In this document: piece by piece, positions 2,016-25,310 of the stretch
Layout: each line of letters opens with the position of its first letter
How positions within the stretch are numbered: the first letter of the stretch is position 1
Origin: Pseudolabrys sp.
GTDB lineage: Bacteria; Pseudomonadota; Alphaproteobacteria; Rhizobiales; Xanthobacteraceae
DNA: 64,000 nt
Direction: 5' to 3'
NCBI GenBank assembly: GCA_026125895.1
Contig: JAHCKG010000004.1
Location: 62,001 to 126,000 of the forward strand
Translations under genes and position numbers: made by a program
Notes under the pieces: model-generated
Database searches by the model: none
The model's input: the letters and a program-made list of their open reading frames with translations, nothing else
Told to the model about the DNA's origin: nothing

Positions 2016-2095
2016 TTACTTCCTCGTCAAAATCCTCGCCACCTTCTCAAGACTGCGGCCGCCGAAATAGGCGGTGAGCACGATCATGCCCACTG
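2016..2095 (-). pseudogene. 3' remnant of an unidentified membrane-protein gene at a deletion scar
   Basis: In a frame different from the head-closure gene, about 26 codons end at TAA (2016-2018). They encode a hydrophobic segment followed by a basic tail (GGRSLEKVARIL then TRK). This looks like the extreme C terminus of a membrane protein whose 5' part is missing. The join with head-closure sequence lies near 2095. It marks one border of the deletion that removed the tail genes of the cluster. The identity of the parent gene is not recognised. Confidence 0.4.
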
Positions 2096-2187
2096 CGCGT
2101 GACGCCGCCGGCGCCGTCCGGCGTTTCGATCGGCGCCTGCAACAGCAAGCGGCGATCGAGCGCTCCGATATCGAAGGGCGCGCTCAT
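2047..2187 (-). pseudogene. Phage/GTA head-closure (head-tail adaptor) gene, truncated
   Basis: The ATG at 2187 overlaps the stop of the head-tail connector (ATGA). The first ~31 residues (DIGALDRRLLLQAPIETPDG, then AGGVTR) match the N terminus of the SPP1 gp16/HK97 gp10-like head-closure family, normally about 105-115 residues. After GGVTR the frame runs into unrelated sequence and stops after another 15 codons, so the beta-barrel adaptor domain is lost. In gene-transfer-agent clusters this is gene 7, and tail genes normally follow. None is present here; a nitroreductase gene follows instead. It is therefore almost certainly non-functional. Confidence 0.75.
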
Positions 2188-2750
2188 AGCGACAGCACCC
2201 GGTACGGCGCGAGCAAAGCCGCCACCGTCGCCGGCAGCACCGTGACGCTGGCCGTCGTGGTGAGGCCGCGGTTCTCGTACCAATGCGCGACGAGCAATCG
2301 CACCGTCTGGCGCAGCGGCTCCGGCACGTCGCTCGCCGCATCGCCATAACCCACGGTGACGTCGAGCGCGATGCCGGCGGCGCTGCGGTCTGGCTGCGCC
2401 ACCGCCCAGGGCGCGAAGACAATCGCGTTGCCCGCGGTATCGACGGCGAAGCTTTGCAGATCGAGCGCCGCGGCGTTGCCGTCCTTGTCGGTGACGCGCA
2501 CCGCGGTCAGCGCCCGTAGCGGCGCCGGCGTCACGCTGAGCCGGCCGTCCGCCGGCCAGGCATCGCGCGTCAGCCGCCAGCTCTGCGTGATCAGCGCGCG
2601 CCGCGTCTGCGCCTCGACATGGAGGCGCGCCGCGGCGATCAGGCTGGCGATGACGTCGTCGTCGTCGCTGTGCTCGACACGCAGGAAGGCCTTGGCCTCG
2701 GCGAGCGACAAGGGCTCGGCCGCAGGCGCGGTGAGAAGGATGGAGGGCAT
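2184..2750 (-). CDS. Phage/GTA head-tail connector protein (phiE125 gp8/HK97 gp6-like)
   Basis: A 188-residue protein whose N-terminal PLSLAEAKAFLRVEHSDDDD is diagnostic of the phage head-tail connector family that forms the ring below the portal. The C-terminal part (VPEPLRQTVRLLVAHWYENR) is the usual helical end. It is intact and translationally coupled to the truncated head-closure gene by an ATGA overlap. In RcGTA-type clusters this is gene 6, directly after the capsid gene; here a 2.1-kb plus-strand block separates the two. Expression is uncertain because its neighbours are broken. Confidence 0.88.
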   Translation of the reverse strand: MPSILLTAPAAEPLSLAEAKAFLRVEHSDDDDVIASLIAAARLHVEAQTRRALITQSWRLTRDAWPADGRLSVTPAPLRALTAVRVTDKDGNAAALDLQSFAVDTAGNAIVFAPWAVAQPDRSAAGIALDVTVGYGDAASDVPEPLRQTVRLLVAHWYENRGLTTTASVTVLPATVAALLAPYRVLSL

Positions 2751-2766
2751 GGGTTCTCCCTACTCA

Positions 2767-2870
2767 GTCGTCGTCCGCGCGAAGGCGGGGACCCATATGC
2801 CGTGCCCTATCGTGAGCACACGGCGTATGGGTCCCGGCTCACCTCGCTTCGCTCGGTGTCCGGGACGACG
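2767..2870. repeat. Palindromic intergenic repeat (REP-like)
   Basis: An imperfect inverted repeat about 100 bp long. The left arm (cgtcgtccgcgcgaaggcgg, ggacccatatgccgtg) pairs with the right arm (cacggcgtatgggtcccggc ... gtccgggacgacg). Its form resembles palindromic repeats I recall between genes in Bradyrhizobium-like genomes. It sits at the connector-side border of the plus-strand insertion block and directly upstream of the S1 protease start. It could fold into a long hairpin in RNA. Confidence 0.75.
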
Positions 2871-2902
2871 TGGTTGTTGACAATCGGTCCGCGCCAAGGC
2901 TC

Positions 2903-3685
2903 ATGCCTGTCCGCATGCGCCTTGCCGCCACAGTCTTTTTCGTCACGCTGGCCGTCACGCCGGCCCATGCCGTCAGCGGCCAGGCGCCGCCGGCGTCAGG
3001 CTTTGCCGCGCGGCCGATCGTCATGCTGATCGACAACCGGGGCGACCTGTGCACCGCCACGGCAGTGGCGCGCGACCTCGTGCTGACGGCCGCGCATTGC
3101 GTCGTCATTCCGGCGACCTATCGCGTGCGCGTGTTCCAGAACGCCGCCATGGTCGAGGTCGACAAGATCCGGCGGCATCCCGGATTCAACATGGCGAATT
3201 ACAAGGCGAGCCGCGCCACCGCCGACGTGGCGCTGGTCAAGCTCAAAGGTCCCCTGCCCGACATCGTGATGCCGGCCGCGCTCGCCGCGCCGCGCCGCGT
3301 CGAGGTCGGCGAGACGCTGACCATCGCCGGGTTCGGCGTGACGCAAGCCGGTACCGCGCATGGCCTCGGCCAGCCGCGCATGGCAAGCCTCGTTGTCACC
3401 GGCAAGCCCGGCAGCCTGCAGATCCGCCTGCAGGATCCCGAGACGAAGAACGAGCGCCCCGGCCTCGGCGGCTGCACTGGCGATTCCGGCGCGCCGGCCT
3501 TCGACGGCGCCGGCACGAGCGACAGCGGCAATGACACTGGCAAGATCATCGGTGTCGTCTCCTGGTCCACCGCGCCGAAGAGCGAGGAAGGCTGCGGCGG
3601 CCTCACCGGCCTCACGCCGCTGCTCAACTACCGCGACTGGATCGTGACCACCGCCGCCGCGCTCGGCTCGCCGCTCGCGCCGTAA
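2903..3685 (+). CDS. Secreted S1-family (trypsin-like) serine protease
   Basis: A 260-residue secreted protease. A signal peptide (about residues 1-23, cleavage after AHA) precedes a chymotrypsin-fold domain with the complete triad: His65 in LTAAHC, Asp107 in TADVALV and Ser194 in GDSGAPAF. Cysteines flank these motifs as in the family. It should act in the periplasm or outside the cell; the substrate is unknown. I chose the ATG at 2903, which has an AAGG a few bases upstream; ATG 2915 would give a shorter signal peptide. It lies on the strand opposite to the head genes and is the first gene of the repeat-bounded block. The downstream tandem repeat begins at its stop codon. Confidence 0.88.
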   Translation: MPVRMRLAATVFFVTLAVTPAHAVSGQAPPASGFAARPIVMLIDNRGDLCTATAVARDLVLTAAHCVVIPATYRVRVFQNAAMVEVDKIRRHPGFNMANYKASRATADVALVKLKGPLPDIVMPAALAAPRRVEVGETLTIAGFGVTQAGTAHGLGQPRMASLVVTGKPGSLQIRLQDPETKNERPGLGGCTGDSGAPAFDGAGTSDSGNDTGKIIGVVSWSTAPKSEEGCGGLTGLTPLLNYRDWIVTTAAALGSPLAP

Positions 3686-3803
3686 GGAGCAATTCCAGGA
3701 AAAGTGACGTGCGGTTTTCCGTCCGGAATTGCGACCAATCAAAAAGGAGCAATTCCAGGAAAAGTGACGTCCGGTTTTCCGTCCGGAATTGCGACCAACA
3801 AGA
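3684..3803. repeat. Two tandem copies of a 60-bp rhizobial palindromic repeat
   Basis: Two nearly identical head-to-tail units, 3684-3743 and 3744-3803, differ clearly only at 3711/3771 (g/c) and at their last bases. Each contains outer inverted arms ggagcaattcc and ggaattgc around a ccggaaaac-like inner hairpin. This looks like an interspersed element widespread in rhizobial genomes (recalled, not searched). The first copy overlaps the protease stop codon. The array stays open in the frame of the following membrane-protein gene, so a false N-terminal extension can be predicted there. Confidence 0.85.
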
Positions 3804-3871
3804 AAGACACTTCGCCGCAGTCCGGCGGCGCGGCGAAACCGCTAGGGTCCGCGCTCATCCAGCGAGCGCTC

Positions 3872-4480
3872 ATGCTGTTCCCGACCGACCTGTCATCCTT
3901 TCTCGACCTGATCCGCCAGCACGGCGAAGCGGCCTACAGCTTCATGTTCGCCTATGCCGCTTCGCACAGCCTGCTGTTCGGGCTGTTCGGCGGCTATGCC
4001 GCGCATGCCGGCGCGCTCAACACTGGCAAGCTCATCGGCGTGTTCTGGTTCGGCAGCTTCGCCGGCGACGTCATCCGCTTCTATCTCGGCCGCCGCTATG
4101 GCGCGCGGCTGTTCAAGTCGTGGCCGCGCATCGAGCGACTCGTCACCATCGCCGCGCGCCTCACCGACAAGCACGCCGTGTTGATGATCCTGTTCCACCG
4201 TTATCCGCACGGCATCCGCGGCGCCGCCGCCTTCGCCTACGGCCTGTCGAACCTGACCTGGCCGACCTTCCTGTTCTTCAATTTCATCGCCGCCGGGCTA
4301 TGGGCCGTCGCGGTGGTCGCCGCCGGCTACGCCTTCGGCCAGGTGTCGGAGACGGTGATGAACGACGCCTCCTCCGGCCTCGGCCTCGGCATGCTCGTCA
4401 TCTTCATCGGCCTGTCGTGGTTCCTGAGCAAGAAGCTCGAGCAGACCATCGAGCGCGACTCCGAATTAACCCGGCGTTAA
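3872..4480 (+). CDS. VTT/DedA-type membrane protein
   Basis: A 202-residue integral membrane protein with about five hydrophobic segments. The stretch FGGYAAHAGALNTGKLIGVF followed by GSFAGDVIRFYLGRRYG is the G-x-x-x-G plus F/Y-x-x-R pattern of the VTT (DedA/SNARE-associated) domain. The segment RYPHGIRGAAAFAYGLS is the second family signature. DedA/VTT proteins are implicated in lipid flipping, notably of undecaprenyl phosphate, and in envelope homeostasis. I placed the start at ATG 3872 because the upstream codons are translated repeat sequence. Its TAA stop forms the right half of a CtrA-type box that precedes the next gene. Confidence 0.82.
   Translation: MLFPTDLSSFLDLIRQHGEAAYSFMFAYAASHSLLFGLFGGYAAHAGALNTGKLIGVFWFGSFAGDVIRFYLGRRYGARLFKSWPRIERLVTIAARLTDKHAVLMILFHRYPHGIRGAAAFAYGLSNLTWPTFLFFNFIAAGLWAVAVVAAGYAFGQVSETVMNDASSGLGLGMLVIFIGLSWFLSKKLEQTIERDSELTRR
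4466..4480 (+). promoter_or_regulatory. CtrA-type binding box upstream of the mini flagellar-rod gene
   Basis: TTAA (4466-4469), a 7-bp spacer and TTAA (4477-4480) match the full CtrA consensus TTAA-N7-TTAA. The box lies 50 bp upstream of the ATG at 4530, and a further half site (TTAA) is at 4501-4504. CtrA is the cell-cycle and motility regulator of this class. Binding is inferred from the match alone. Confidence 0.6.
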
Positions 4481-4529
4481 CCGCGCCCGCCAACGCCAGG
4501 TTAACGCCGCCGGCCCTAACGTTCCGCGC

Positions 4530-4745
4530 ATGAGTTCGGTCGGTGCAGCTTCCATTTCCGGCATGATGGCCGCGGCGGCGCAGTTTCAGGCCTCCGCGAT
4601 GCGCATCGCCAATTCGGCCGACGGCGGCGCCATGGCCGAACAGCTCGCGCAGATGGTCACCTCGCAGGCCTCTTTCGCCGCCAACGCGCAGACGCTCAAG
4701 GCGCAGACCGACATGGTCGGCCAGCTCGTCGATATCCTGGCTTAG
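4530..4745 (+). CDS. Miniature flagellar-rod/hook-like protein (71 residues)
   Basis: The N-terminal SISGMMAAAAQFQASAMRIA resembles the N-terminal D0 helix of flagellar rod and hook proteins. The C-terminal QMVTSQASFAANAQTLKAQT followed by DMVGQLVDILA resembles their C-terminal D0 helix (usual pattern: Y/F-xAN-x3-I-x-T-x-D-x-M-x-x-x-L-D). The two are joined by only about 15 residues, whereas FlgB/C/E/F/G proteins have 100 or more between them. It may be a small axial-like adaptor or a derived protein with another role. A CtrA box lies 50 bp upstream and no other flagellar gene is in the window. The similarity is by eye. Confidence 0.65.
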   Translation: MSSVGAASISGMMAAAAQFQASAMRIANSADGGAMAEQLAQMVTSQASFAANAQTLKAQTDMVGQLVDILA

Positions 4746-4754
4746 TCTTTCTTT

Positions 4755-4903
4755 CACCTCTCCCCGCAATGCGGGAGAGGTCGACATTCGAGCGTCAGCG
4801 AGAATGTCGGGTGAGGGGCAAGACACAGCGCTTCCGATCGCCCCTCACCCGTCTCGCAGCTAGTGCTGCTCGCCACCCTCTCCCCGCTTCGCGGGGCGAG
4901 GGA
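4755..4903. repeat. Composite palindromic repeat (BIME-like)
   Basis: About 150 bp built from inverted modules: cctctccccgcaatgcgggagagg, then cgacattcgagcgtcagcg with its partner agaatgtcg, then gaggggc pairing with gcccctc, and a second ctctccccgcttcgcggggcgag hairpin. This composite type is familiar from rhizobial genomes. It forms the capsid-side border of the plus-strand insertion block and follows the capsid stop codon on the minus strand, where its hairpins may stop transcription. Confidence 0.75.
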
Positions 4904-4909
4904 AAGAAG

Positions 4910-6175
4910 TTACGACGCCGCGAATTTCATCACCTTGATGGCGTCGAAGTCCTGGATGCCGCCGCCGACGCGCTTGGTGGTGTAGAACAGCACGTAGGGC
5001 TTGGCCGAATACGGATCGCGCAGCACGCTCACGCCGGCGCGATCGACGATCAGATAGCCGCGGGCAAAATCGCCGAAGGCGACCGACAGCGAGTTCGCCG
5101 CGATGTCCGGCATGTCTTCGGCTTCGACCACCGGGAAGGTCATCAGCGAAGCGCGGCCGCCCGCCATGGCCGGCGGCTGCCACAGATACTGCCCGCTCGT
5201 GTCCTTGAATTTCCGCACGCTGCTCTGCGTCTTGCGGTTCATGACAAAGTGGGCGTTCTGCCGGTAGCCGGCCTTGAGCGCATAAATGAGGTCGATCAGC
5301 GCATCGGCCGGGTTCGAGCCGGCAAAGGCGCCGGTGGCGCCGGAGGCGATATAGCCGACATTGCCCCAGCTCCAGGAGGCGTTCGCCACCGCAGTATAGC
5401 TGAGGAAGCCCTTCGGCTTGTTCGTGCCGTCGCCCGTCACGAAAGCGGTGCCCTCCTGCGCCGCGAACACGGCCTCGACTTCCTGCGCCAGCCACTCGTC
5501 GATGTTCACCGCCGAGTCCTCGAGCAAGGTCGCGGTCTCGGCCGGCATGGCGTAGAGCTCCATCGCCGGGAACGACAGCTGGTCGAGCGTCGGCGACGCC
5601 GTCTGCGTGCGCGGATCGGTCCCGCCAACCCAGCCGACCGCGGGGCCGGCCGTCATGAACGGCTTCTTGTAGACGTTGGCGGAGATGGTGCGCGCGCCGG
5701 CGATCGAACGGATCGGCGAGATGGCGGTCAGCCTTTTGCCGATCTCGGTCTCGATCTCCACCGGCACGGTGTAGCCGCCGTCGGCATTGGAGCCGATCGA
5801 CAGCGCCTTCGCTTCCAGCGCCGCGAGGCCGGCGGCATCGCCGCCGCGCATATAAGCGTCGAACGCCTGCTTGTGCTCCAGCGCCGCCGCGCTGCGCGGC
5901 GACTTGTCGCCGCCGAGCGCCGGCCGCGCCGACTTCAGCGTCATTTCGTCGAGACGGCGCGCCTGGGCGTCGATGGCGGCGTCGATGCGGGCGAGCTTGT
6001 CGTCGATCAGGCCGTCGCCGGCGCGCTTCTGTTCGAGCGCCAGGCGCTGGTCGTTGGTTTCCTTGAAGGCTTCGAAGGCGCGCATCATCTCGGTATGCGT
6101 CACCACCGCGTCGAGCGGGATGCCCGACTTGGTTTCGTAAGGCTTGGTCTCAAGCGTCGTCGTCTCGGTATCCAT
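4910..6175 (-). CDS. HK97-type major capsid protein
   Basis: A 421-residue HK97 gp5-fold coat protein. An acidic, coiled-coil-prone N-terminal scaffold-like region (about residues 1-105) precedes the shell domain. Diagnostic stretches are GGYTVPVEIETEIGKRL, PRTQTASPTLDQLSFPAMEL, EGTAFVTGDGTNKPKGFLSY and the C-terminal KRVGGGIQDFDAIKVMKF. The start at 6175 has an AGGAGAAG ribosome site. In related clusters the capsid gene directly follows the prohead protease; here a toxin pair and a plus-strand methyltransferase intervene. The gene is intact although its packaging partners are broken. Confidence 0.95.
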   Translation of the reverse strand: MDTETTTLETKPYETKSGIPLDAVVTHTEMMRAFEAFKETNDQRLALEQKRAGDGLIDDKLARIDAAIDAQARRLDEMTLKSARPALGGDKSPRSAAALEHKQAFDAYMRGGDAAGLAALEAKALSIGSNADGGYTVPVEIETEIGKRLTAISPIRSIAGARTISANVYKKPFMTAGPAVGWVGGTDPRTQTASPTLDQLSFPAMELYAMPAETATLLEDSAVNIDEWLAQEVEAVFAAQEGTAFVTGDGTNKPKGFLSYTAVANASWSWGNVGYIASGATGAFAGSNPADALIDLIYALKAGYRQNAHFVMNRKTQSSVRKFKDTSGQYLWQPPAMAGGRASLMTFPVVEAEDMPDIAANSLSVAFGDFARGYLIVDRAGVSVLRDPYSAKPYVLFYTTKRVGGGIQDFDAIKVMKFAAS

Positions 6176-6271
6176 GGAGCTTCTCCTGTTGAAGGGTTGT
6201 GGCTGGTCAGCGGGCGAATTCGCGCTATCCTCACGCGACGGCCGGGCGACCGGCGAAGCGGGGGAAGACGC

Positions 6272-7108
6272 GTGACAGACGAAATCCGTTCGGCGATCGA
6301 CTTCTACGAGCGCCATCCGATCTCGGCCGAAATCATCAAGGCCAAGCTGCTCGACGCGCGCGGCACGCTCGAGAACGTCGCGCCCGACGAGCTCTTCGCG
6401 CACGATCAGGATCACTATGGCAGCCTCGCCGCCAACGACGCCCTGGCGCAGCGCGCCGGCATCGCGCAAGGCAGCCGCGTCGCCGATTTCTGCGCCGGTC
6501 TCGGCGGCCCGGCGCGCTATCTCGCGCACCGGTACGGCGCCGATGTCACCGGCATCGAATTGACGCCGGCGCGCGTGCGCGGCGCGGCCGAGCTGACGCA
6601 GCTCGCCGGCCTCGCCGATCGCGTGCGCGTTATCGAAGGCAATGTCATAGCCGTGCCGCTCGACGGCGGCAGCGTCGATGCCGTCATCAGCCAGGAAGCC
6701 TTCCTGCATGTGCCGGACAAGGCGAAGACTCTGGCCGAGGCTCACCGCATTCTCAAAAACGGCGGCCGCCTCGCCTTCACCGACTGGGTCGCGCACCGGC
6801 CGCTGTCGCAGGCCGACGCCGCGCTGATGTGGGCCGGCATGGCCGCCACCAATCTTTACGACATCCCCGCTTATACGAAGCTGATCGAAGCCGCCGGCTT
6901 CACCGTCACCAGCGTCGATGATCTCACCGCCGATTGGGCCGAGATCCTCAAAGCGCGCCTCGCGATGTATCAGAAGCTGCGCGGCGAAACCCGCGCCGCC
7001 GGCACGGCGTCAGGCCACGATGCGTTCTATGAAAGCTATGTCCGCTTCGTCGAACTGGTCAGCGAAGGCACGCTCGGCGGCGCGCGGTTTGCGGGGGTGA
7101 AGGCTTGA
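6272..7108 (+). CDS. Class I SAM-dependent methyltransferase
   Basis: A 278-residue methyltransferase with a Rossmann domain. Motif I is VADFCAGLGGPARYLAHRYG, the acidic end of beta-2 is GIELTP, and the post-motif region is DAVISQEAFLHVPDKAKTL. A helical lid and C-terminal segment follow. The layout resembles ubiquinone/sarcosine-type small-molecule methyltransferases; the acceptor is unknown. The start is GTG 6272, just after ggaagacgc; codons upstream belong to the capsid leader region. It lies on the plus strand, divergent from the capsid gene, between it and the toxin pair, so it is not part of the phage operon. Confidence 0.85.
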   Translation: MTDEIRSAIDFYERHPISAEIIKAKLLDARGTLENVAPDELFAHDQDHYGSLAANDALAQRAGIAQGSRVADFCAGLGGPARYLAHRYGADVTGIELTPARVRGAAELTQLAGLADRVRVIEGNVIAVPLDGGSVDAVISQEAFLHVPDKAKTLAEAHRILKNGGRLAFTDWVAHRPLSQADAALMWAGMAATNLYDIPAYTKLIEAAGFTVTSVDDLTADWAEILKARLAMYQKLRGETRAAGTASGHDAFYESYVRFVELVSEGTLGGARFAGVKA

Positions 7109-7167
7109 TGGCTTAGGTCGGCGATGCCGATCATGGCTTCAAGCTCGGCCTGGGTCTCTTTCGCGGT

Positions 7168-7538
7168 TTAGCTCAGACGACACGTGCCTTCGTCCAGCGC
7201 AGTCAATGTCTGATGTGCGTAGGCCGCCTGCGGAAACTCCCTATTGTCCCATAGTCTTTGAAGGGCCTGACGTGCCGCAACCGGTGACACCGCCAGCGCC
7301 CTCTGAGCGGCATTAAGGCGCACTTGAGGATTCGGGTGATCGAACAACGTCACCAGGGCCGAACGTTGATCGCCGGCTCGACCGGCCAGCTCGTCTTTGA
7401 TCCGCACGCCTCATCAAAAAGCCGATTGGATCTTGCGGTGTCGCCGTGTCGCTCGGCCTCGTACTGTTCAAGAGCTAGCGCGGTGAAGCGATCGACCAAC
7501 TGTGAGACTGTCAAAGACTGCAAACTGATGCGGTTCAT
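7168..7538 (-). pseudogene. DUF2019-type putative immunity gene, frameshifted
   Basis: The first frame starts at ATG 7538, overlapping the toxin stop (ATGA), and gives SLTVSQLVDRFTALALEQY through ARSNRLFDEA. The second frame continues from about 7407 with RIKDELAGRAGDQRSAL, then HPNPQVRLNAAQRALAVSP and a C-terminal helix. Together they make one DUF2019-like helical-repeat protein of about 120 residues. The join needs a one-base correction near 7407, so the gene is frameshifted (or carries a sequencing error). DUF2019 proteins are small rhizobial proteins of unknown function; an immunity role is inferred from the overlap with the toxin gene. Confidence 0.72.
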
Positions 7539-8275
7539 GGCTTGAGAACTCCGAGGTCCCTCAATGCTTGCAGGCCGACCGCTCGCCTCACTTCCCAGCT
7601 TCGACCTGAATGATACTCTCGCGGCGAAAGCTCGCCGAATTCCGGATTCTTCGTCTGATACCATCCATTGACCTGTTGGTGCATCAGCCGCGGCACGTGC
7701 ACCAGATTGTTGGGATCGTCGATCACCTCCTGAGGAAACCCGTCCTGCTCGGCCTGCGCCTGCTCGACGATATGATGAATATCATATCCAGGCGCTGGCG
7801 TCGAAGCCCCTCGCTGCAGATCTTCGAGCGATTTCGGCGGGTCGTTATAAGCGGCGATGTCCGCCGAATAGACCTGGATCCATTTCGCCGCTCTGGCGAA
7901 GAATTCGACGGTCTTCCCAGTCTGCTGGATCTGCCGCGCGACGTCTCTCAGCACGGAAGTTCGTTCGCGCGAGGTCGGCGGCCTCTGGCCCGAATTTCCT
8001 GGTTTATCCGAGCCCCGCTCTTTGCCCGGCTTGGGATCACCCGCGCCGCCGCCTTCAGCCGTCCATTTCCCGCCGTCGGGATTGCCCTTCGGCACCCGCG
8101 GCTGATCCGGCTTAAAGCCAGCTTTCCAGGCGACCTGCAGCGCTTGGCCATGCCGCCGCATCGCGCGCTCGAGCCGCACTTCCGCAGCCAGGCATTTCAG
8201 CTCGCTCAGCGAACAGACGATCGCATTCAGCGTCAGCCGGCGCTGCCATTCGCTCTCGATGACATCGGCGCGCAT
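7535..8275 (-). CDS. Putative HNH-type nuclease toxin with GNPDGGKWT linker
   Basis: A 246-residue protein. The N-terminal ~65 residues are helical and followed by KPDQPRVPKGNPDGGKWT, a linker I recall from many rhizobial toxin-like proteins, then a Gly/Pro/Lys-rich stretch. The C-terminal domain carries GYDIHHIVEQ, DDPNNLVHVPRLMHQQVNGW and HSGRSWEVRR, the His-His/Asn/His pattern of the HNH/GHH toxin nuclease group. The ATG at 8275 is 4 bp after the prohead protease stop. The DUF2019 gene overlaps its end. I infer a DNase or RNase effector carried as cargo; no secretion signal is visible. Confidence 0.7.
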   Translation of the reverse strand: MRADVIESEWQRRLTLNAIVCSLSELKCLAAEVRLERAMRRHGQALQVAWKAGFKPDQPRVPKGNPDGGKWTAEGGGAGDPKPGKERGSDKPGNSGQRPPTSRERTSVLRDVARQIQQTGKTVEFFARAAKWIQVYSADIAAYNDPPKSLEDLQRGASTPAPGYDIHHIVEQAQAEQDGFPQEVIDDPNNLVHVPRLMHQQVNGWYQTKNPEFGELSPREYHSGRSWEVRRAVGLQALRDLGVLKP

Positions 8276-8279
8276 CGCG

Positions 8280-8906
8280 TCACCCCACCCGCCGCCGTCG
8301 CAGGCGTTCGACGCGCAGCGGCGCAAGCGGCCGTGAAGACGCAAGCGGCGCCGCGCCTTCGCCGCCCACCACCTCGCGCCACTCCTTCTCCGCGCGCGTG
8401 CGCGCGAATGACGGCCGCCGGGAGGCAGCGTCCTTCACCGCATGCACGCGCGCGCCCGCCAGCAGCGGGAACGTGACGATCGAGATTTCCCAGAGATCCA
8501 CGGCAAGAAGTGAACGCACGCGCGTCTTCGGATCGATGCGGCCCGTCACGGTGCGGAAGCCGATCGACAGGCCGTCGATGGCGCCGGAGCGGATCAGCGC
8601 CAGCAGCTCGCGGCCGCGCGCCACTTCGGGAATGAGCCGGCCGCGCGCGTAGAGGCCGCGATGGTCCTCGCGCAGTTCGAGCCAGACGCCGACCGGCTCG
8701 GCCGGGTCGTGCTGGAACAGCATCGGGATGCGATGGACGCTCTTCTGCCGCAAAGTCTGCGCGAAGGCGCCGCGCACCACCATGTCGCGCGCCTGGTCGA
8801 TGGCGCCGAACAGCGAGGCGTAGCCTTCCATCGTGCCGTCGTCGTGGATGCGCGTCTTCGGCGCGAACACGGAGGCGATGGTGGGGTCGGAGTTGAGTGC
8901 AAGCAT
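8280..8906 (-). CDS. HK97-family prohead protease
   Basis: A 208-residue maturation protease of the U35/HK97 gp4 family. It cleaves the capsid scaffold and itself inside the prohead. Signatures are DDGTMEGYASLFGAIDQ, the catalytic His in MLFQHDPAEPVG, the region AIDGLSIGF (catalytic Ser) and LWEISIVTFPLL. The C-terminal ~40 residues are basic and low in complexity. In RcGTA-type clusters it lies between portal and capsid as gene 4. Here it is intact and 4 bp upstream of the toxin gene, so both are probably on one transcript. Confidence 0.92.
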   Translation of the reverse strand: MLALNSDPTIASVFAPKTRIHDDGTMEGYASLFGAIDQARDMVVRGAFAQTLRQKSVHRIPMLFQHDPAEPVGVWLELREDHRGLYARGRLIPEVARGRELLALIRSGAIDGLSIGFRTVTGRIDPKTRVRSLLAVDLWEISIVTFPLLAGARVHAVKDAASRRPSFARTRAEKEWREVVGGEGAAPLASSRPLAPLRVERLRRRRVG

Positions 8907-8939
8907 CGAGCGCTCCAGACATGCGTGTCCCGGGGGTGA

Positions 8940-9125
8940 CTACTTCCGTCCGCGCCGCGCCTTCATCTTCGTCGCCCGCTGCGGCGGCGCGCTTCTGCGC
9001 TTGGCGGCGCGGTCGAGATGGTCGAGGAATTCGCGAAACACCGTGAGATGGTCGCGGCGGCTCGGCACCGCTCTGTTCCTGGTGTCGCCCTTGATCGAGC
9101 GCACCACGTCATGCATCGTATCCAT
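8940..9125 (-). CDS. Small basic hypothetical protein in the head cluster
   Basis: A 61-residue very basic protein beginning MDTMHDVVRSIKGDTRNRA, with RDHLTVFREFLDHLDRAAKR in the centre and a Lys/Arg-rich tail. Its ATG overlaps the stop of the preceding gene (TGATG), indicating translational coupling. It ends 33 bp before the prohead protease. Position and coupling support a real gene. I do not recognise a family; related clusters also carry one or two tiny genes here. Confidence 0.6.
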   Translation of the reverse strand: MDTMHDVVRSIKGDTRNRAVPSRRDHLTVFREFLDHLDRAAKRRSAPPQRATKMKARRGRK

Positions 9126-9325
9126 CAGTCCCCTCCGATACGGTCGCGGTTGAAGCGTTCGTTGAAGCGCGCGAGTTCGCGCACGAAGTCGTCGAAGCGG
9201 CGGTGGGCGGCGGTGAGCTCGCGCAAGGCGAAGCCGGCGAGCGCGCTCACCGACAGCGCCCACAGCAGCAGCGCCACGTGAGCGAGATCGCCGCGCGCGG
9301 AAAACATGTCGATGATGTCGGGCAT
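9125..9325 (-). CDS. Small membrane protein, GTA gene 3.5 position
   Basis: A 66-residue protein: a short N terminus (MPDIIDMFSARGD), one hydrophobic membrane helix (about residues 16-35, VALLLWALSVSALAGFAL), then a charged helix (RRFDDFVRELARFNERFNRD). The gene lies between the portal and protease genes, where RcGTA-like clusters carry gene 3.5. It overlaps the next small gene by TGATG. The start is the ATG at 9325; upstream codons are non-coding in character. The function is unknown. Confidence 0.65.
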   Translation of the reverse strand: MPDIIDMFSARGDLAHVALLLWALSVSALAGFALRELTAAHRRFDDFVRELARFNERFNRDRIGGD

Positions 9326-9469
9326 GGTGCCTGCTTGCCCCGGTCGCGCTACGGCATGAAATGCCGCTGCGCAGAACCGGGGCCGTCCCGGATTCGTTTT
9401 TTTGGCGGTCCCGGTTCTGCGGCGCATCGCCGACGCGCTGCGCCGCGCCCGGGACAAGCCCCGCAACGC

Positions 9470-9500
9470 AAAACCCGCCGCGGTCGCCCGCGACGGGTTT
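9470..9500 (-). terminator. Intrinsic terminator after the DUF4142 gene
   Basis: Read on the minus strand, AAACCCGTCGCGG and CCGCGGCGGGTTT form a GC-rich stem of about 12 bp with a GCGA-like loop, ending in TTTT. It lies about 50 bp after the stop of the DUF4142 gene and 145 bp before the next head gene, so it should separate the two. Confidence 0.7.
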
Positions 9501-9550
9501 GATCATGCGGCGCTATGAGCGGCGGATCGCTCAGCGATGAGGCGCCGGTG

Positions 9551-10180
9551 TCAGCGCGTCTTGCTGCTGCTGCCGGTGGTCGCCGCCGGCTTGTCGAGAT
9601 ACTGCGCCATCTTCAGATGCTTCTGCAGCACCGGCACGGTCTCCTTGGCGAGATCGGCGAGCGGGCCGGTCTTCTTGGCTTCCGCCTGGTACTTGGCGAT
9701 GTCCTTCTTGTGGTCCATCACCATGTGCTTGGCGAACTCACGGTCGAACTTGGCTCCCGACAATTTGCTCAGCTTGTCGTAATCGGCCTTCTGCTTGGCG
9801 CTCATGCCGTCCGGCGCCGACGCGCCCATCTCGGCCGAAGCCGCCTCGAGCTTCTTCAAGTGATCGCCGTGATCTTTCGCCAGCGTTTCGCCGAAAGTCT
9901 TGACGCCGTCGCTCTGGCCTTTCTCTTGCGCCAGTTCGCCCATCTTCACCTCGGTCATGTCGCCCTGCATCGCCTCCTTGAGGAACGCCTGGTCGGCCTT
10001 GGAGGCCTTGCCGGTCGCACTCTTGCCGGCGGTACTCTTGCCGGACATATCATTTGACGTCGCCTGCGCCCGCGCCGCCGTCCCCTTGTTGCCGTTCGAA
10101 CTGGTCTGCGCCTGCGCGGCGCCGGCGGCGAGCGCGAATGCGGCGGCAACGCCGATCGCGAGCATCGGTTTGCTGTTCAT
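9551..10180 (-). CDS. Secreted DUF4142-domain protein
   Basis: A 209-residue exported protein. The signal peptide (about 1-24, cleavage after AQA) is followed by a Ser/Thr/Gly/Lys-rich low-complexity linker (about 25-60), then a DUF4142 four-helix-type domain. The domain shows KADQAFLKEAMQGDMTEVKM, KTFGETLAKDHGDHLKKLEA and DREFAKHMVMDHKKDIAKYQ, with paired histidines like ferritin-like bundles. DUF4142 proteins are periplasmic and often stress-linked. I placed the start at ATG 10180 (MNSKPML). It lies between the portal remnant and gene 3.5 and is not a phage structural gene, so it is probably cargo. Confidence 0.82.
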   Translation of the reverse strand: MNSKPMLAIGVAAAFALAAGAAQAQTSSNGNKGTAARAQATSNDMSGKSTAGKSATGKASKADQAFLKEAMQGDMTEVKMGELAQEKGQSDGVKTFGETLAKDHGDHLKKLEAASAEMGASAPDGMSAKQKADYDKLSKLSGAKFDREFAKHMVMDHKKDIAKYQAEAKKTGPLADLAKETVPVLQKHLKMAQYLDKPAATTGSSSKTR

Positions 10181-10285
10181 TGGGTACCTCGTTCCATAAA
10201 GTTGTTCCGCTCCGCGCGACCTTGTGCGCGCAAAGCTCATGAAGAGAACGGCGCCGCGGCGACGCCGTTCCTGTTCCGCACCGCT

Positions 10286-11468
10286 TTAGGACATTAAAAC
10301 GTCGCCACCTTCGATCGCACCGTAGCCGGTCGCCCCGCGCTTCTCGTTGACGCTGAGGAACGGCGCCCTGGTGACGCGTTCCCACAGCGCGGCGCGGTCG
10401 GCGCCGAGCGCCTCGATGCGGTCGGCGTCGGCGACAAGCGTCAGCTTCGCTGCGCCGAAGCCGGGCGACAGCCACTGCGCCAGCGCGGCGCCGATGCGGT
10501 TCGCCAGCGGCAGCACGCTCTGGCGATAGAACGCGCGATTGGCCTCGGCGTAATTGGCGTAGGTGTTGTCGCCCGGAATGGCGAGCAGCATCGGCGGCAC
10601 GCCGAAGGCGAGCGCGATCTCGCGCGCCGCCGAATGCTTGGCCTCCATGAAGTCCATGTCCTTGGGCGACAGCGACATCGCCTTCCAGTCGAGCCCGCCT
10701 TCGAGCACCATTGGCCGCGCCTTCATAGCGCTCGGCCAGTTGCGTCTTGAGCCGTTCGTACTGCGCGTCGGTCAGCATCGAGCCGTCGGCGCCGGCATAG
10801 ACCAGCGCGCCGGACGGCCGCGCCGCGTTGTCGAGCAGCGCCTTGTTCCAGCTCGCCGCCGCATTATGCGTGTCGACGGCGGTCGCCGCCGCCTCGAGCG
10901 GACTGAGTCCGTAATAGTCGTCGAGCGGATTGAACAAGGTCAGATGCAGGATCGGCGGCACGGCGCCGTCGTTGGCCCTCTCCTGCACGAAGCGCACGGT
11001 CTGCCCGGCCACGGTGTAATCGAACGCCGCCGGCCAGCCGTCCGGCCCCGGCACCACCTTCATGCGGTCGGGCCGCAGGGCGTGGAGCTCGCGCGGCGGC
11101 CCCTCGCCGCCGGCCTTCACCGCCTCGGCATAGGCGTTGCCGGACAACATCAGATGCGCGGCAATGGCTTCGAGCAGGCCCGGCCCGTCCTGCCGCGGAT
11201 TGGGCCGCGCCAGGAGATCGAGCAGTGGATGCGCGTCAAGTTCTTCGGCGCCGTCGAAGAGCACGAACGCCGTGCTGCCGACCGACTCTGCGGTCAACCG
11301 CACCGCGCGGTGCACGATGGCGTTGCGGGGGTAGCCCTCGCGGGCGAGCGCGGCGTAGTCGCGCGGCGTCCAGCGGGCGCGGCCGCCGCTCTCGAGCGCG
11401 ATCAGCCGGCCAATGCGCGTCGCCTTCTGTTCGGCGGGGCGCAGCAGTCTCTTCAAGGTGTCGAGCAT
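10286..11468 (-). pseudogene. Phage/GTA portal protein gene, frameshifted
   Basis: An HK97-type portal. From ATG 11468 the frame encodes ARWTPRDYAALAREGYPRNA, then RPNPRQDGPGLLEAIAAHLM, LSGNAYAEAV and AASWNKALLDNAARPSGAL, up to LAERYEGAANG. At about 10715-10725 the correct frame moves to the one encoding RPMVLEGGLDWKAMSLSPKD, EIALAFGVPPMLL and ANRAFYRQSVLPLANRIG, ending at the TAA at 10286. The sequence at the join looks like a small deletion between GGCGCG-type repeats. Without repair the protein loses its clip and crown regions. A T-run terminator abuts the ATG, so expression is also doubtful. Confidence 0.88.
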
Positions 11469-11469
11469 G

Positions 11470-11496
11470 AAAAAAGCCCGCCGGTGACGGCGGGCT
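11470..11496 (-). terminator. Intrinsic terminator abutting the portal start codon
   Basis: On the minus strand, GCCCGCCG-TCAC-CGGCGGGC is an 8-bp GC-only stem followed directly by TTTTTT, and the portal ATG begins one base later. It should end transcripts coming from the upstream secreted-protein gene and leaves no room for a portal promoter or ribosome site between hairpin and start. Confidence 0.8.
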
Positions 11497-11565
11497 CCTC
11501 TGGTTGGTATCGCTGATGACCGTCATCGCCCCGCTGGCGCGGAGCGTGACAGGCCGGGAACGATT

Positions 11566-12330
11566 TTAGTTCGCCGCGTAGCGCGAGGCGTGCGGATTGA
11601 CGATGGCGTAGCCCGCGATCGAGCGGACATGACGGCGGGTCTTGCCGCCGCCGGAATTGCCGTCGTGGACCATCCACTCGTTGCCGCTGACCTGGCTGAT
11701 CAGCACGAAGACGTGGCCCGAGCGCGCCGCCACCATGCCGGGGGCCGGCGTGGTGCGCGGGAATTTGCGCGCCCAGTTGGCGGCAAGATTCAGATCCTTG
11801 CGGATCTCGCCGAACACATAGAGCGACGCTTCGCAGCCGCAGAAGCGGTGCGGGCATCCGCTCGGCCGGCCGCCGAGGATCACGCCGTTGCCGTTGGCAT
11901 CGGCGATCTGCGCGCGCGCGGCGCGCCGGTTGGTCGCCGGCGTCGGCAGATCCGTCGGCGTTTCCGCCGCGGTCGCCGTTGCCTGCGCGGCCAGCGCATT
12001 GTCCGTGCATCCGCGGGCATTGCAGGACACCTGGCCCTGGGACTGCGCCCGGGCCTGAGCCTGCCGCGGGCGATGCGCGCGCCGTGCAGTCGTCTCCTGC
12101 GCCTGGCGGCTCGCCCGGCGCTCGGCACCGCGCGAATTATGCGCGGCAGCATTATTGGTCATCGGATTATCTGAACAACCGCGCGCGTCGCACGTTACCT
12201 GTGCGTGTGCGGTTGATCGATGCTTCGGTCGGGCGTCGGCGCTCGTCGCCGCCGCCGTGATCGACGCGATCGTCATGATCGCGAGTACAGCTCGTTTCAA
12301 TATTCTGGTCACCTGTCTTGAAGGCGGCAT
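11566..12330 (-). CDS. Secreted hypothetical protein with paired Cys-x3-Cys motifs
   Basis: About 254 residues. An N-terminal signal peptide (RILKRAVLAIMTIASITAAA, cleavage near ADA) precedes a Gln/Arg/Ala-rich region with two copies of a Cys-[DN]-Ala-Arg-Gly-Cys-[ST]-Asp-Asn motif about 65 residues apart. The C-terminal globular domain contains RPSGCPHRFCGCEASLYVFG, LNLAANWARKFPRT, VSGNEWMVHDGNSGGGKTRR and a HVRSIAGYAIVNP ending. I recall homologous C-terminal domains as uncharacterised exported rhizobial proteins. The start is uncertain: 12372, 12330 or GTG 12312. It lies between terL and portal and is followed by a strong terminator, so it is an independent unit. Confidence 0.72.
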   Translation of the reverse strand: MPPSRQVTRILKRAVLAIMTIASITAAATSADARPKHRSTAHAQVTCDARGCSDNPMTNNAAAHNSRGAERRASRQAQETTARRAHRPRQAQARAQSQGQVSCNARGCTDNALAAQATATAAETPTDLPTPATNRRAARAQIADANGNGVILGGRPSGCPHRFCGCEASLYVFGEIRKDLNLAANWARKFPRTTPAPGMVAARSGHVFVLISQVSGNEWMVHDGNSGGGKTRRHVRSIAGYAIVNPHASRYAAN

Positions 12331-12372
12331 TAACGCCGCAGATGGCAGGAGCGGCATTCGAGAATGCCGCAA

Positions 12373-12731
12373 GCACGAAGTTGTTCCCGTACCACCGTTT
12401 CAATGTGACCAAAGAATGACAACCGGAAGCATGCCTTATGCTTAAGCCATGCACGTTAACGTTTGTGTCGGCAGATTTGCATACGGAATAAACAAGTCGC
12501 GAAAAGTCTCGATTTTACGGGCCATTTCAGTCGGCCCCACGACACATCGTTGCCGAGATCGACTCATTCGCGACACAAATCTTGCGCCCCGCGCCATGGT
12601 CCGTTTGACGCAGCCATGCATGAATCGTGTGCCGGAACAGGTCATACAGCCGAAATTGTTTGATTCCGCCCGGCCGCATCGGGTTGTATTGCACGCACTC
12701 GACACCAATCGAGGGTTATCGGGCTCGCGTT
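12373..12731. other. Intergenic stretch without a recognisable gene
   Basis: About 360 bp between the secreted-protein gene and the first DUF6968 paralogue. It is less GC-rich than its neighbours. Open frames here are short and overlap without coding character; a 27-codon minus frame starting MARKIETFRDLF stops early. It probably holds the promoter of the secreted-protein gene. I see no RNA gene or repeat. Confidence 0.5.
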
Positions 12732-13067
12732 TTATAAATAAGTTGTGTCCTCGCCCGCGAGCCGATCGCGCATATTCGGCATCACCGGGAAGCCGTACCC
12801 GTTGCCGGGCTTGTCCCAAAACAGCGTGCCCGCGCCATGAGCCGCGCTGACGTGGAGCTCCGTGCCGATCATCTGCAGCGCCAGGATCAGCGCCTGCATG
12901 GCGTCGACACCAAACGTCGATTTCCGCGACACGCCGTCCGGCCAGCCGATCGTCGTGTCGCACTTCCAGGCGCCATTAGCTTGCCGCTCCGGCGCGAACA
13001 ACGCGACCGGCACATCGACAACCGCACCGTCGGTCTTCATCCTCAGCGTTCGCGTGGCGATCGGCAT
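12732..13067 (-). CDS. DUF6968-like protein, copy 2
   Basis: A 111-residue protein clearly paralogous to the gene just upstream. Shared features in order are a TRTL beta-strand start, F/YAPER, a W-x-C/R-x4-GWP(D/E)G segment, G(V)DA-x-QA, an L-x-MIG-x-EL stretch, and the C-terminal WDKPGNGYGFP-x5-RD. I recall this as the DUF6968 family, small alphaproteobacterial proteins of unknown function. The gene lies 11 bp after copy 1 and probably shares its transcript. It has no signal peptide, so it is likely cytosolic. It is part of the cargo between terL and portal. Confidence 0.7.
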   Translation of the reverse strand: MPIATRTLRMKTDGAVVDVPVALFAPERQANGAWKCDTTIGWPDGVSRKSTFGVDAMQALILALQMIGTELHVSAAHGAGTLFWDKPGNGYGFPVMPNMRDRLAGEDTTYL

Positions 13068-13078
13068 GGGCGCACCAG

Positions 13079-13414
13079 CTATAAATATTTCGCGTCATCC
13101 CCGATCAAAAGATCACGAAGGGTCGGCACCAGTGGAAAGCCGTAGCCATTGCCGGGCTTGTCCCAGACCAGGCCACCCGATTTGTGGTAACTGCTTGAGT
13201 AGAGTTCGGCTCCAATCATACCAAGCGTTACTGTCACCGCCTGTATGGCGTCGACGCCATAACCTGCAAACACATGCGGGCCTTCGGGCCAACCGACGTC
13301 GTAGCGGCATCGCCAGACGCTCGCCTTCTCACGCTCCGGCGCGTAAATCGAGATCGGAATTTCGATGCTGCGTTCGCCATCACGCAACGTCAGCGTTCTT
13401 GTGCCAATGATCAT
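13079..13414 (-). CDS. DUF6968-like protein, copy 1
   Basis: A 111-residue protein (MIIGTRTLTLRDGERSIEI, APEREKASVWRCRYDVGWPE, VWDKPGNGYGFPLVPTLRD). It aligns over its full length with copy 2, roughly 40-45% identical by eye, so the two arose by tandem duplication. The ATG overlaps the TGA that ends the read-through frame of the damaged terL gene (ATGA). The overlap may be a coincidence of the terL 3' frameshift. The function is unknown; small size and duplication are reminiscent of immunity-type families, but that is only a guess. Confidence 0.7.
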   Translation of the reverse strand: MIIGTRTLTLRDGERSIEIPISIYAPEREKASVWRCRYDVGWPEGPHVFAGYGVDAIQAVTVTLGMIGAELYSSSYHKSGGLVWDKPGNGYGFPLVPTLRDLLIGDDAKYL

Positions 13415-13540
13415 CGAACCTTCAAAAGTTCAGCGGAGGAATCTGCCTCCGTTGCAAACAGTTCGAATAGCGCAAATTCGCCTGACCATAGCTGGTCGGC
13501 ATGCGCACGGCTCGGCTTAAAAACAACTTCTGCCGATGCC

Positions 13541-14403
13541 CTACAGCACCCTGATCCGCGGCTCGGGCCTTGCGGCAAAGTCAGCGCCGCCACCGCCCGG
13601 ACCAGCGCGTCGAGGCGGTCAGGCGAGCGGCCGGACGACAGACCATCGACGCCGAAATCGCACATCTCATCCTCGAGCGCCGGGAACGTGCCGGCATGCC
13701 TGACGCGGCCCTGCTCGTACAACTGCGACACCGGCTCGGCGCGATGATAATTGCCCCGCGTCGCCACCGTGGTCGGACCGGTGATCAGCTTCTTGAGAAG
13801 CGCGATCGGCCGCGGCGTTGTGGTGATCACCTGCCGCGGCCGCGCGCCAAGGCGCAGTCCGAACTGCAGCATGTCAAAGGTTGCTTCGGCATGACGCCAC
13901 TTGGCGAGCTCGTCGCACCACGCGGCCGAAAATTGCGGACCGCGCAGGCCTTCATAATTCTCCGCCGAGAGGATCTCGGCGATCGCTCTGTTCTTCCATT
14001 CGAGACGGCGGCGGGTCGGAAACCATTTCGCCTGCTCATCGCTGCGGTGAATGGACAGAAGCCCCGACACGCCCTCGACCATCACGGACCGCACGCCGTG
14101 CTCAGTCTCGCCGACCAGCGCGATGCGGGCGCGGCGGCCGTCAAGGGCCACACGCCTCACCCACTCCGCGCCCGCGCGGGTCTTGCCGGCACCGCGGCCG
14201 CCGAGGATGAGCCAGGTCGTCCAAGGCTTTCCATTGGCGGCAACAGCGGGCGGTCTCTGGTGGTTGTGTGCGAATAGATCGAAATCGCAGTTGAAGCTAC
14301 GAGACTAATTTGCCCGTAGCGCCGCCAGAACTTCCGCGGCGATGGGCGGTTCGCTCTTCGCTAAGGTTTCTAATGCGTCGAGCAAGTTCGTTTCGGAACT
14401 CAT
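13541..14403 (-). pseudogene. Terminase large subunit (terL), multiply disrupted
   Basis: The reading frame from ATG 14403 (MSSETNLLDALETLAKSEPP) overlaps the end of terS. It meets an amber TAG at 14305-14307 (codon 33) and resumes in the same frame with DFDLFAHNHQRPP, Walker A GGRGAGKT, Walker B AAWCDELAKW and the coupling motif TTTPRP. Then LITGPTTVATRG joins directly to YHRAEPVSQLYEQGRVRHAG, SGRSPDRLDALVRAVAAL and the end. About 130-170 codons, including nuclease-domain residues, are missing in frame. Near the 3' end a one-base shift separates it from the natural terminus PRIRVL-TAG (13541-13543); the unshifted frame runs on to 13411. DNA packaging by this gene is impossible. Confidence 0.85.
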
Positions 14404-14914
14404 CGACGTCGCGGGGCACGGGGTCAATGGCGTCGTCATCGGATGGCGTCTCGTTACCGGCATTTGTCAGGAGAGAGATGTCGCGCAGAACGCGCGACAC
14501 GCTGGCCAAAGTACGAGCGCCGTGCTCGGCCTCCAGTGGATCGCTCAGCCGCAACACCGCGACGATGCGCTCGATGCCATCCAGTTCGCGTTCGGCAACG
14601 ACCAGCATGCGGTGCGCCAGGCCGACCCGCTGCCGCGCCACGGTCGCCGCATCGATGGCCACCGGTGGCAGCGGCGCTGCAGGAGCGTCTTGCGTTTCGG
14701 CGGGAGCGTGCAAAGCCTCGCGGACGGCGCCGGCGAAACTGAAGGTCGGCCGCGCGCGGCGGCTCCGCCAGCCCAGTTCGCGGGCGCGATCGTAGAGATT
14801 GGACCGCGCCAGACCGACCATCGCGGCGACGTCGCCGACCGGCGCATTGGTCTGTTCGTAGAGACGCCTGGCCTCGGCCAGCACATCGGGCGGAATGATT
14901 TTCTTGGCGGTCAT
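14297..14914 (-). CDS. Putative terminase small subunit / DNA-recognition protein
   Basis: A 205-residue protein directly upstream of and overlapping terL. The N-terminal PPDVLAEARRLYEQTNAPVG followed by DVAAMVGLARSNLYDRAREL forms a helix-turn-helix like those of small terminases and transposase-type DNA binders. The middle is Ala/Pro-rich, and a C-terminal helical region (ARQRVGLAHRMLVVAERELD) could oligomerise. In GTA clusters this is the position of gene 1, which marks DNA for packaging by TerL. It is intact, starts 15 bp after an intrinsic terminator and has a GGGGGAGGGG ribosome-site region. The role is inferred mainly from position. Confidence 0.72.
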   Translation of the reverse strand: MTAKKIIPPDVLAEARRLYEQTNAPVGDVAAMVGLARSNLYDRARELGWRSRRARPTFSFAGAVREALHAPAETQDAPAAPLPPVAIDAATVARQRVGLAHRMLVVAERELDGIERIVAVLRLSDPLEAEHGARTLASVSRVLRDISLLTNAGNETPSDDDAIDPVPRDVDEFRNELARRIRNLSEERTAHRRGSSGGATGKLVS

Positions 14915-24247: not shown

Positions 24248-24336
24248 GAGCCGCCGGACATGCCTTGCCGGCGCGGCTCACGCAAGCTTCTTGCGCGCGC
24301 GGGTGCTATGCCGGGCGGCGCCCGGGCGCGGCCGCC

Positions 24337-24519
24337 TCACCGCGGCAGCCGCTGCGATTCACGAAGCGAATCCGCCAGCTCCTCGCTGTGGAAGGCCTCG
24401 ATATCGGCGGCAACGTCCGGATAGGACGCCTGCATGAACTTGGCCTGCTTGTCGCGGTACCGCTGATAGGCGCCGAGCCGGCGGTTGAGACGTTCAAGCG
24501 CGCGACACCGGGCGTCCAT
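24337..24519 (-). CDS. Small hypothetical protein downstream of the repeated promoter element
   Basis: A 60-residue charged, helical protein (MDARCRALERLNRRLGAYQR, YRDKQAKFMQASYPDVAADI, EAFHSEELADSLRESQRLPR). The frame remains open upstream for about 25 codons with coding-like composition, but no ATG, GTG or TTG was seen there before a TAA, so the 5' end may be altered. Promoter element copy B lies about 75-120 bp upstream on the same strand. I recognise no family. It could be a 3' remnant of a longer gene. Confidence 0.45.
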   Translation of the reverse strand: MDARCRALERLNRRLGAYQRYRDKQAKFMQASYPDVAADIEAFHSEELADSLRESQRLPR

Positions 24520-25281: not shown

Positions 25282-25310
25282 TTGCGAAGCAACCTGCCAT
25301 TAGCGACCGC

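Follow-up and report, generated by a model that had tools for sequence, protein, structure and literature searches.

Tagged toxin-like proteins in gene transfer agent head clusters of Pseudolabrys and related bacteria

The 64,000-nt stretch of Pseudolabrys sp. DNA analysed here (the window; contig C34:62001-126000 of a 4.52-Mb genome in 50 contigs, 82% complete and 5% contaminated) carries a head-gene cluster resembling the gene transfer agent (GTA) of Rhodobacter capsulatus (RcGTA). Non-structural genes lie in the gaps between its head genes, and several head genes are broken, which raises the question of what these inserted genes are and when they arrived. One of them encodes a protein with a short tag that recurs in many other proteins. 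The assembled sequences contain a common tag, varied toxin-like ends, linked partner genes, an enrichment of the tag in GTA clusters, and ORFs (open reading frames) of GTA and phage clusters in which portal or protease continues in frame into the tag and a variable end. The best reading of the tagged genes is that they probably encode polymorphic toxins riding in GTA and phage heads. Below, L and G numbers denote loci and genomes.

The common tag, its toxin-like ends and its fusions

The window gene at 7535..8275 encodes a 246-residue protein with a helical N-terminus, the tag at about residues 53-72, and a C-terminal AHH-like domain with an invariant HH...N...H pattern (H167, H168, N190 and H199 in the alignments). 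In its AlphaFold model, a long helix forms the N-terminus, the tag region has low confidence and the C-terminal domain is confidently modelled (mean predicted local distance difference test score, 81.7). A tblastn search of this protein against phages gave no match, and sequence and profile searches against solved structures gave nothing useful.

The tag motif of this protein recurs in other proteins of the GTA loci of relatives. It spans about 20 residues (consensus PDQPRVPAGxxxGGQWT) and is joined to varied toxin-like ends. In an alignment of 20 of the 22 distinct stretches, omitting one variant (L043) and one near-copy (L079), 10 of 29 columns were invariant over the 20. An exact DNA pattern for the tag had 22 matches in 60 genomes, compared with 1 for the reversed control, and these lay inside GTA clusters in 17 of 20 cases in the genus (that of Pseudolabrys sp. 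Root1462) and in 1 of 2 in G054. Across 297 genomes of the order, a tag profile matched 74 times, in 45 of the genomes; all 74 neighbourhoods were read, and 23 of them (18 genomes) had GTA context, taken as at least two GTA genes within 8 kb. In a sample of the class, the tag was present in 10 of 142 genomes, the window's own included. No NCBIfam family exceeded its cut-off for the tagged proteins, and a literature search, with subscription papers mostly outside its reach, returned no title on GTA-borne polymorphic toxins and no paper with the letters of the tag. The type VI secretion system (T6SS) was not linked to the tag, VipB being found in 5 of 45 tag-bearing genomes and 42 of 252 others, and T6SS delivery was rejected as a general explanation on these counts. 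At L188, L191 and L194, AHH genes carry a variant tag, WDExKHPRxP...GGRF, hinting that the tag family is wider than the consensus.

Only two kinds of end on tagged open reading frames (ORFs) exceeded the Pfam cut-off. RNAse_A_bac, a CdiA-type RNase A, was found at L129 and L136 outside GTA clusters, at L233 in a GTA cluster, and at L281 behind a phage portal, and Colicin_E5 was found at L343 (E 5.9e-9). A deaminase-like end remained below the cut-off (E 7.7e-5). Other ends are AHH/HNH-like or Cys-rich, and several without Pfam support appear by eye to be PD-(D/E)xK-like, HNH-like with CxxC, or nucleotidyltransferase-like.

Small partner genes accompany these ends. Of 51 AHH loci from public genomes, 48 have DUF2019 no more than 1.5 kb downstream of the AHH gene and 27 have two or more GTA genes within 10.5 kb; a broad regular expression saw the tag in 31. 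Among 24 AHH ranges read, 19 were open, four contained a stop and one was out of frame. DUF6968 follows tagged Cys-rich genes in L036, L049 (twice), L126 and L148. The tie between toxin-like gene and putative partner, AHH with DUF2019 and Cys-rich with DUF6968, is one of position only. A Priestia plasmid holds a comparable pair, in which a secreted-looking PT-TG-domain toxin with an AHH-similar end is followed by a HEAT/DUF2019-like gene (match under the cut-off). Named strains carry the set as well: the tag, an open AHH gene, DUF2019 and the GTA cluster are all present in Pseudolabrys sp. Root1462 (L157), and the same set, with a stop in the AHH range read, was found in Bauldia litoralis (L173) and Rhodopseudomonas infernalis HC1 (L193). 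Blastochloris sulfoviridis DSM 729 (L186) and Hyphomicrobium zavarzinii ATCC 27496 (L204) have AHH, DUF2019 and GTA genes, and the regular expression saw no tag there. Two further arrangements were observed after tagged genes. A 130-140-residue gene, alike by eye at L082 (9241-9663), L124 (6725-7141) and L040 (8948-9346), follows tagged GHH-end proteins in and outside GTA clusters and is a possible further immunity family. At L129 (6281-7240), three tandem similar 77-residue genes follow the tagged RNase A-type protein, a possible immunity array.

The tag is also fused in frame to head proteins. In a scan of viral contigs, 180 of 244 pattern stretches were confirmed and 75 loci were kept; the fused ORFs are stop-to-stop readings of the assembled sequence. 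GTA clusters extend from terL to g15 in L232, L233, L274 and L278 and to g14 in L260, and of these five only L278 has a g7 match. In L232, a GTA portal (best solved match, the RcGTA portal Rcc01684, E 3.2e-114), the tag and an end that is HNH-like by eye lie in one frame. In L233 and L260, which have three tagged ORFs each, a full-length protease match shares its ORF with the tag and a variable end. Partial or second protease copies with further tags then follow, one of them in L233 reading partial copy, tag and RNAse_A_bac. This looks like cassette exchange, of which the loci for contact-dependent inhibition (CDI) hold comparable traces. Partial copies of the protease or of the capsid end lie among tagged ORFs at L233 4885-7100, L260 5823-7310 and L274 8272-10976; L274 has two tagged ORFs, for which the scans made gave no head-family match. 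In L141 and L278 the tag forms the end of the portal, and the portal-tag ORF of L137 continues into another domain. L343 joins portal, tag and Colicin_E5 in one ORF, in a genome whose capsid falls outside the clade of the window's capsid. Phage loci with portal, tag and variable end comprise L215, L218, L220, L225, L239, L240 and L281, and at L218 a DUF6968 match stands directly after the fusion. L208 was rejected as a portal-toxin fusion because its tag ORF is in a different frame from the portal, and L271 (a Mu-type portal with tag) and L236 (a portal with tag) were not used as toxin evidence.

Proposed mechanism, rival explanations and known systems

The module encodes a short N-terminal region, the tag and a C-terminal toxin-like domain that varies, with a small partner gene behind it. 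The tag would recruit the toxin into the assembling head, either fused to a head protein or in trans, and the particle would deliver the toxin along with DNA. The partner would protect the producer's kin, and recipients without it would be poisoned. The stronger proposal, that GTA heads of Hyphomicrobiales are armed with tag-recruited or portal/protease-fused toxins so that only immune kin survive as recipients, is tentative, and we place it a little short of probable. In the window strain the system would no longer work, the tail being gone, the packaging genes broken and DUF2019 frameshifted.

Several results weigh against the head-borne toxin reading. The AHH domain of the window protein matched Pfam only below threshold (PF14412, E 0.24), a Foldseek search with its model gave no match under E 0.001, and a scan of 20 AHH members returned no nuclease-naming Pfam family. 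The AHH gene is often broken, with a stop in four of the 24 ranges read and also in L159. The tag is not exclusive to GTAs: 51 of the 74 profile matches in the order lacked two GTA genes within 8 kb, several lying beside housekeeping genes (16 of the 51 were less than 3 kb from the end of their stretch, and one, in G195, adjoins terL alone). The GTA capsid is commoner in tag-bearing genomes (38 of 45) than in others (165 of 252), but the Fisher p of 0.007 ignores kinship among genomes that are not independent; a recheck confined to the tag-bearing genomes found a portal in 4 of the 7 without a capsid match. In G341, G350, G431 and G445, a capsid match is some 9 kb or less from the tag, and these capsids fall outside the window's clade. 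The long loci of G004, G013, G006 and G003 show no tag by the pattern used. A tag at the very end of the portal is rare (2 of 31 portals).

The strongest alternative is that GTA clusters are neutral hotspots that tolerate toxin-immunity or selfish modules, the tag serving another export route or none. The 51 matches outside GTA context fit it, as do the tagless trypsin, VTT, methyltransferase and DUF4142 inserts. We nevertheless consider it unlikely, because separate lineages have the tag joined in frame to portal and to protease, and because the tag occurs in phage packaging regions, concentrates in the GTA loci of the genus and has no T6SS link. Less probable again is that the tagged toxins act within the producer or against competing phages, by exclusion or abortive infection and without delivery. 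A toxin with an adjacent partner suits toxin-antitoxin defence too, and prophages often carry defence genes, but tag-mediated fusion to structural head proteins would be unexpected for a purely cytoplasmic defence.

Among known systems, the head-borne toxin reading resembles the MuF toxins of temperate phages. These have a head-associated part encoded near terminase and portal genes and variable C-terminal toxin domains, and are predicted to be packaged in the head (Zhang 2012 PMC3482391; Jamet 2017 PMC5576092). The tagged proteins share a putative head-associated part, variable toxin-like ends and predicted packaging; unlike MuF toxins, they have a short tag, are encoded in GTA clusters as well and in some cases form one ORF with portal or protease. 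The MuF domain (PF04233/PF06152) was not among the Pfam matches of the tagged proteins scanned, so the tagged system may work like MuF toxins and yet not belong to them. The phrase "gene transfer agent" does not occur in the available text of PMC5576092 or in the available part of PMC3482391. The RNAse_A_bac, Colicin_E5 and AHH-like domains and adjacent partners recall the CdiA, T6SS and LXG-type polymorphic toxins, from which the tagged proteins differ in their trafficking part and in the lack of T6SS association in the order. In phage T4, a short capsid-targeting sequence sends the internal proteins into the head, as the tag would here; the cargo of the tag differs in resembling antibacterial toxins with partners.

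How GTAs persist although their producers lyse is an open question (Kogay et al.). If the head-borne toxin reading is true, linking toxin and immunity genes to the GTA head would restrict the benefit to kin, a green-beard-like linkage that could help to explain the persistence of costly GTA production. Such a module could be tested in cultured strains, the tag would offer a handle for finding head-borne toxins, and DUF2019 and DUF6968 would gain a likely function as putative immunity families.

The GTA cluster of the window and its decay

The features of the cluster, in the order of its minus-strand genes, are as follows.

14297..14914, minus: terS (g1), open ORF; tblastn 62-65% to G033 and G032 in the same position
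13541..14334, minus: terL (g2) remnant (PF03237/PF17289) with an early stop and, relative to G028, a net 471-nt in-frame internal deletion; the ATP-binding motif is still legible
13422..13540, minus: 3' remnant of a tagged Cys-rich gene, tag part missing relative to G028 (L036 18212-18610), from blastn joins and frame reading
13079..13414, minus: DUF6968, putative immunity partner of the tagged Cys-rich protein (PF22302, E 1.7e-29)
12732..13067, minus: second DUF6968 protein (PF22302, E 9.8e-29)
11566..12372, minus: secreted-looking conserved protein between terL and portal, without Pfam match; several relatives match in the same gap
10286..11468, minus: portal (g3), frameshifted; PF04860 (Phage_portal) on two ORFs, 10050-11468 and 10286-10726, a single frame in relatives
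9551..10180, minus: DUF4142 between portal and g3.5 (PF13628, E 5.6e-34), present in G028 and G026
9125..9325, minus: g3.5a, small GTA-cluster gene, 89% to G028 and found in relatives
8940..9125, minus: g3.5b, small gene, 68% to G028
8280..8906, minus: prohead protease (g4), open (PF04586, E 1.9e-38)
7535..8275, minus: tagged AHH/HNH-like protein, open (alignments, model, weak PF14412 match, tag profile E 3.5e-15)
7168..7541, minus: frameshifted putative immunity gene of the HEAT-like DUF2019 family (downstream part matches PF09450, E 6.9e-23; frame comparison)
6272..7108, plus: class I methyltransferase, from Pfam (PF08241, E 4.6e-18) and gene calls (same gap in L037 and L040)
4910..6175, minus: major capsid (g5), open (PF05065; 6tb9; tree)
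4563..4745, plus: conserved 60-residue gene (gene call; 91% to G028)
3872..4480, plus: VTT/DedA-like membrane protein (PF09335, E 1.5e-10)
2903..3685, plus: trypsin-like protease (PF00089, E 1.5e-22)
2184..2750, minus: head-tail adaptor (g6), open (PF05135; Rcc01688)
2092..2187, minus: head closure (g7) stump, 32 of 109 residues, the tail deletion beyond
2016..2110, minus: 3' remnant of a 134-residue gene, found in relatives past the lysozyme gene, at the far edge of the deletion (blastn to L305, L306 and L040)

Head-gene order and strand were checked with Pfam and PHROGs. From 2047 to 14914 the minus strand carries terS, terL, portal, two small genes, protease, capsid, adaptor and the head-closure stump, so that g1-g7 follow the RcGTA order with g7 as a stump. 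The Pfam matches are TerL, Phage_portal on two ORFs, Peptidase_S78, Phage_capsid (E 1.1e-87) and Phage_connect_1; terS and the small genes, without a Pfam match, were assigned through orthologues in relatives. A preliminary description made from the letters of the sequence had proposed this order, about ten non-structural genes in the gaps, some on the opposite strand, and a broken terL, portal and head closure beside an intact capsid, protease and connector. All of this was borne out: the inserts number ten, with four on the plus strand (trypsin, VTT/DedA-like, 60-residue and methyltransferase) and six others (DUF2019, tagged AHH-like, DUF4142, the secreted-looking protein and two DUF6968). 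The DUF2019 frameshift and the remnant of a second tagged gene at about 13422-13540 were found in addition.

The same description suggested a dead GTA locus that had become a landing site for accessory genes. Death stands, whereas arrival of the inserts after it is not supported. Synteny was compared in 17 loci of relatives (16 of the same genus and one of another family), with genes called by a home-made codon-usage caller, and tail-side counts cover the 14 genus loci whose available stretch reaches the tail side, where g15 is often cut by the stretch end. The tail side, with g6-g14 and at least part of g15, is present in 13 of these 14, only G032 lacking the tail, with breakpoints that differ from those of the window. 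The opposite-strand trypsin gene lies between capsid and adaptor in 14 of 14, and the AHH gene with DUF2019 stands beside the capsid in 9 of 14. The locus of the other family, L052, is compact. In L081, L133, L134 and L155, which belong to a further genus and family, a pair of trypsin genes fills the capsid-adaptor gap, and DUF6968 occurs in L081, L133 and L155. Because the same inserts occupy the same gaps of tailed clusters, the interleaving preceded the decay and, judged from these alignments, is an old property of complete-looking clusters. The landing-site explanation, by which unrelated genes entered the gaps after death, has the broken terL, portal and head closure, the missing tail and the loss of the tail in G032 on its side, but it is very improbable and was rejected by the synteny, since corresponding inserts occupy corresponding gaps of tailed clusters and a genus of another family has trypsin genes at that position too. 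The toxin reading does not account for the inserts that lack the tag (trypsin, VTT, methyltransferase, DUF4142 and the secreted-looking protein); at 2903-4745 on the plus strand, the trypsin-like, VTT and 60-residue genes are conserved and tagless. The GTA cluster of L037 (G004; 11.7-19.9 kb) is rearranged, with the methyltransferase gene on one side of terS and terL and the protease on the other.

The capsid ties the cluster to GTAs. Its closest solved structure is the RcGTA capsid Rcc01687 (6tb9, E 3.2e-94), and the sole solved match of the adaptor is the RcGTA adaptor Rcc01688. Capsid matches occur in 21 of 36 genus genomes searched at E 1e-10, and the order has them in 203 of 297 genomes at E 1e-40. 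A capsid tree of 59 rows, RcGTA itself not among them, was built, in which the window falls within a 38-row clade (support 99/93) of conserved alphaproteobacterial clusters, outside which lie 13 rows of other class members and all nine rows labelled as phage records (six), prophage copies (two) or a viral contig (one). A nitroreductase/response-regulator flank common to G028, G026 and G032 marks a conserved chromosomal site. The locus is thus, by sequence comparison, an orthologue of the RcGTA head-tail cluster kept at one site in the genus. It shares with RcGTA the gene order, the conserved chromosomal site and best PDB matches to Rcc01687, Rcc01688 and, for the L232 portal, Rcc01684. Unlike RcGTA, the window copy lacks the tail, lysis genes and an intact terL and portal, and the clusters of the genus hold opposite-strand inserts and toxin-immunity modules that RcGTA is not known to have. 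The capsids of two phage-database records, L333 (MW091529.1) and L334 (MW462191.1), fall inside the window's clade, with head genes in GTA order, and at least the 18-kb record may be a GTA rather than a phage.

The preliminary description had reported no integrase, and none was matched on the 227-kb contig C34 (13 integrase matches lie elsewhere in the genome). That the locus is the remnant of an ordinary temperate prophage is the least credible explanation and was rejected by the capsid tree, for although HK97-type head genes are common to phages and the best capsid in a phage record is 59% identical, that 18-kb record has GTA gene order, the capsid is widespread in the order, the flank is conserved in relatives and the contig has no integrase match.

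In the window strain the cluster is dead, the tail and lysis genes being deleted and terL and portal broken, and DNA-transferring particles are not to be expected from it. Compared with G028, about 10.7 kb is absent, the 134-residue gene being joined to codon 32 of g7. The deletion took the tail genes, a glycosyl hydrolase 108 (PF05838 in the G032 copy), small genes and a DUF2793-like gene. The genome, 82% complete, has no match over the cut-off to the tail family PF13550. A second deletion, immediately after terL, removed the tag-bearing part of the tagged Cys-rich gene and left its end and the two DUF6968 genes. Portal and DUF2019 are frameshifted, and the capsid, protease and adaptor ORFs are open throughout. 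Assembly noise is an unlikely cause of the breaks, because 11 distinct flanking genes each align in a single frame (19 query proteins, three relatives; two alignments over 90-97% of the query). Since the toxin ORF of the window is open beside a frameshifted DUF2019, the toxin is presumably silent.

Rough pairwise Nei-Gojobori ratios of nonsynonymous to synonymous substitution (dN/dS) for the capsid were 0.20-0.29 for four pairs that include the window and 0.18-0.34 for five other pairs, and the ranges of the protease, the adaptor and the N-terminal part of the portal overlap likewise. The similarity of the capsid ratios with and without the window fits a recent loss, so the earlier suggestion that head genes were kept for another reason is not needed; on these comparisons, the loss of GTA function here looks recent and local.

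G032 (L040 5207-6114) lost its tail in a separate event: its adaptor gene is broken next to what is left of g15, and three tag matches are kept. The window's own genome holds a second HK97-type capsid, with divergent portal and adaptor (L035/L002; G000:C2:120001-140000) and an integrase match at C2:134575, which is probably a prophage. Elsewhere in the window, at 24000-27000, the G+C content falls to 0.56-0.60 from about 0.65 around it, and a PIN-domain-like gene and a small antitoxin-like gene form a pair by eye.

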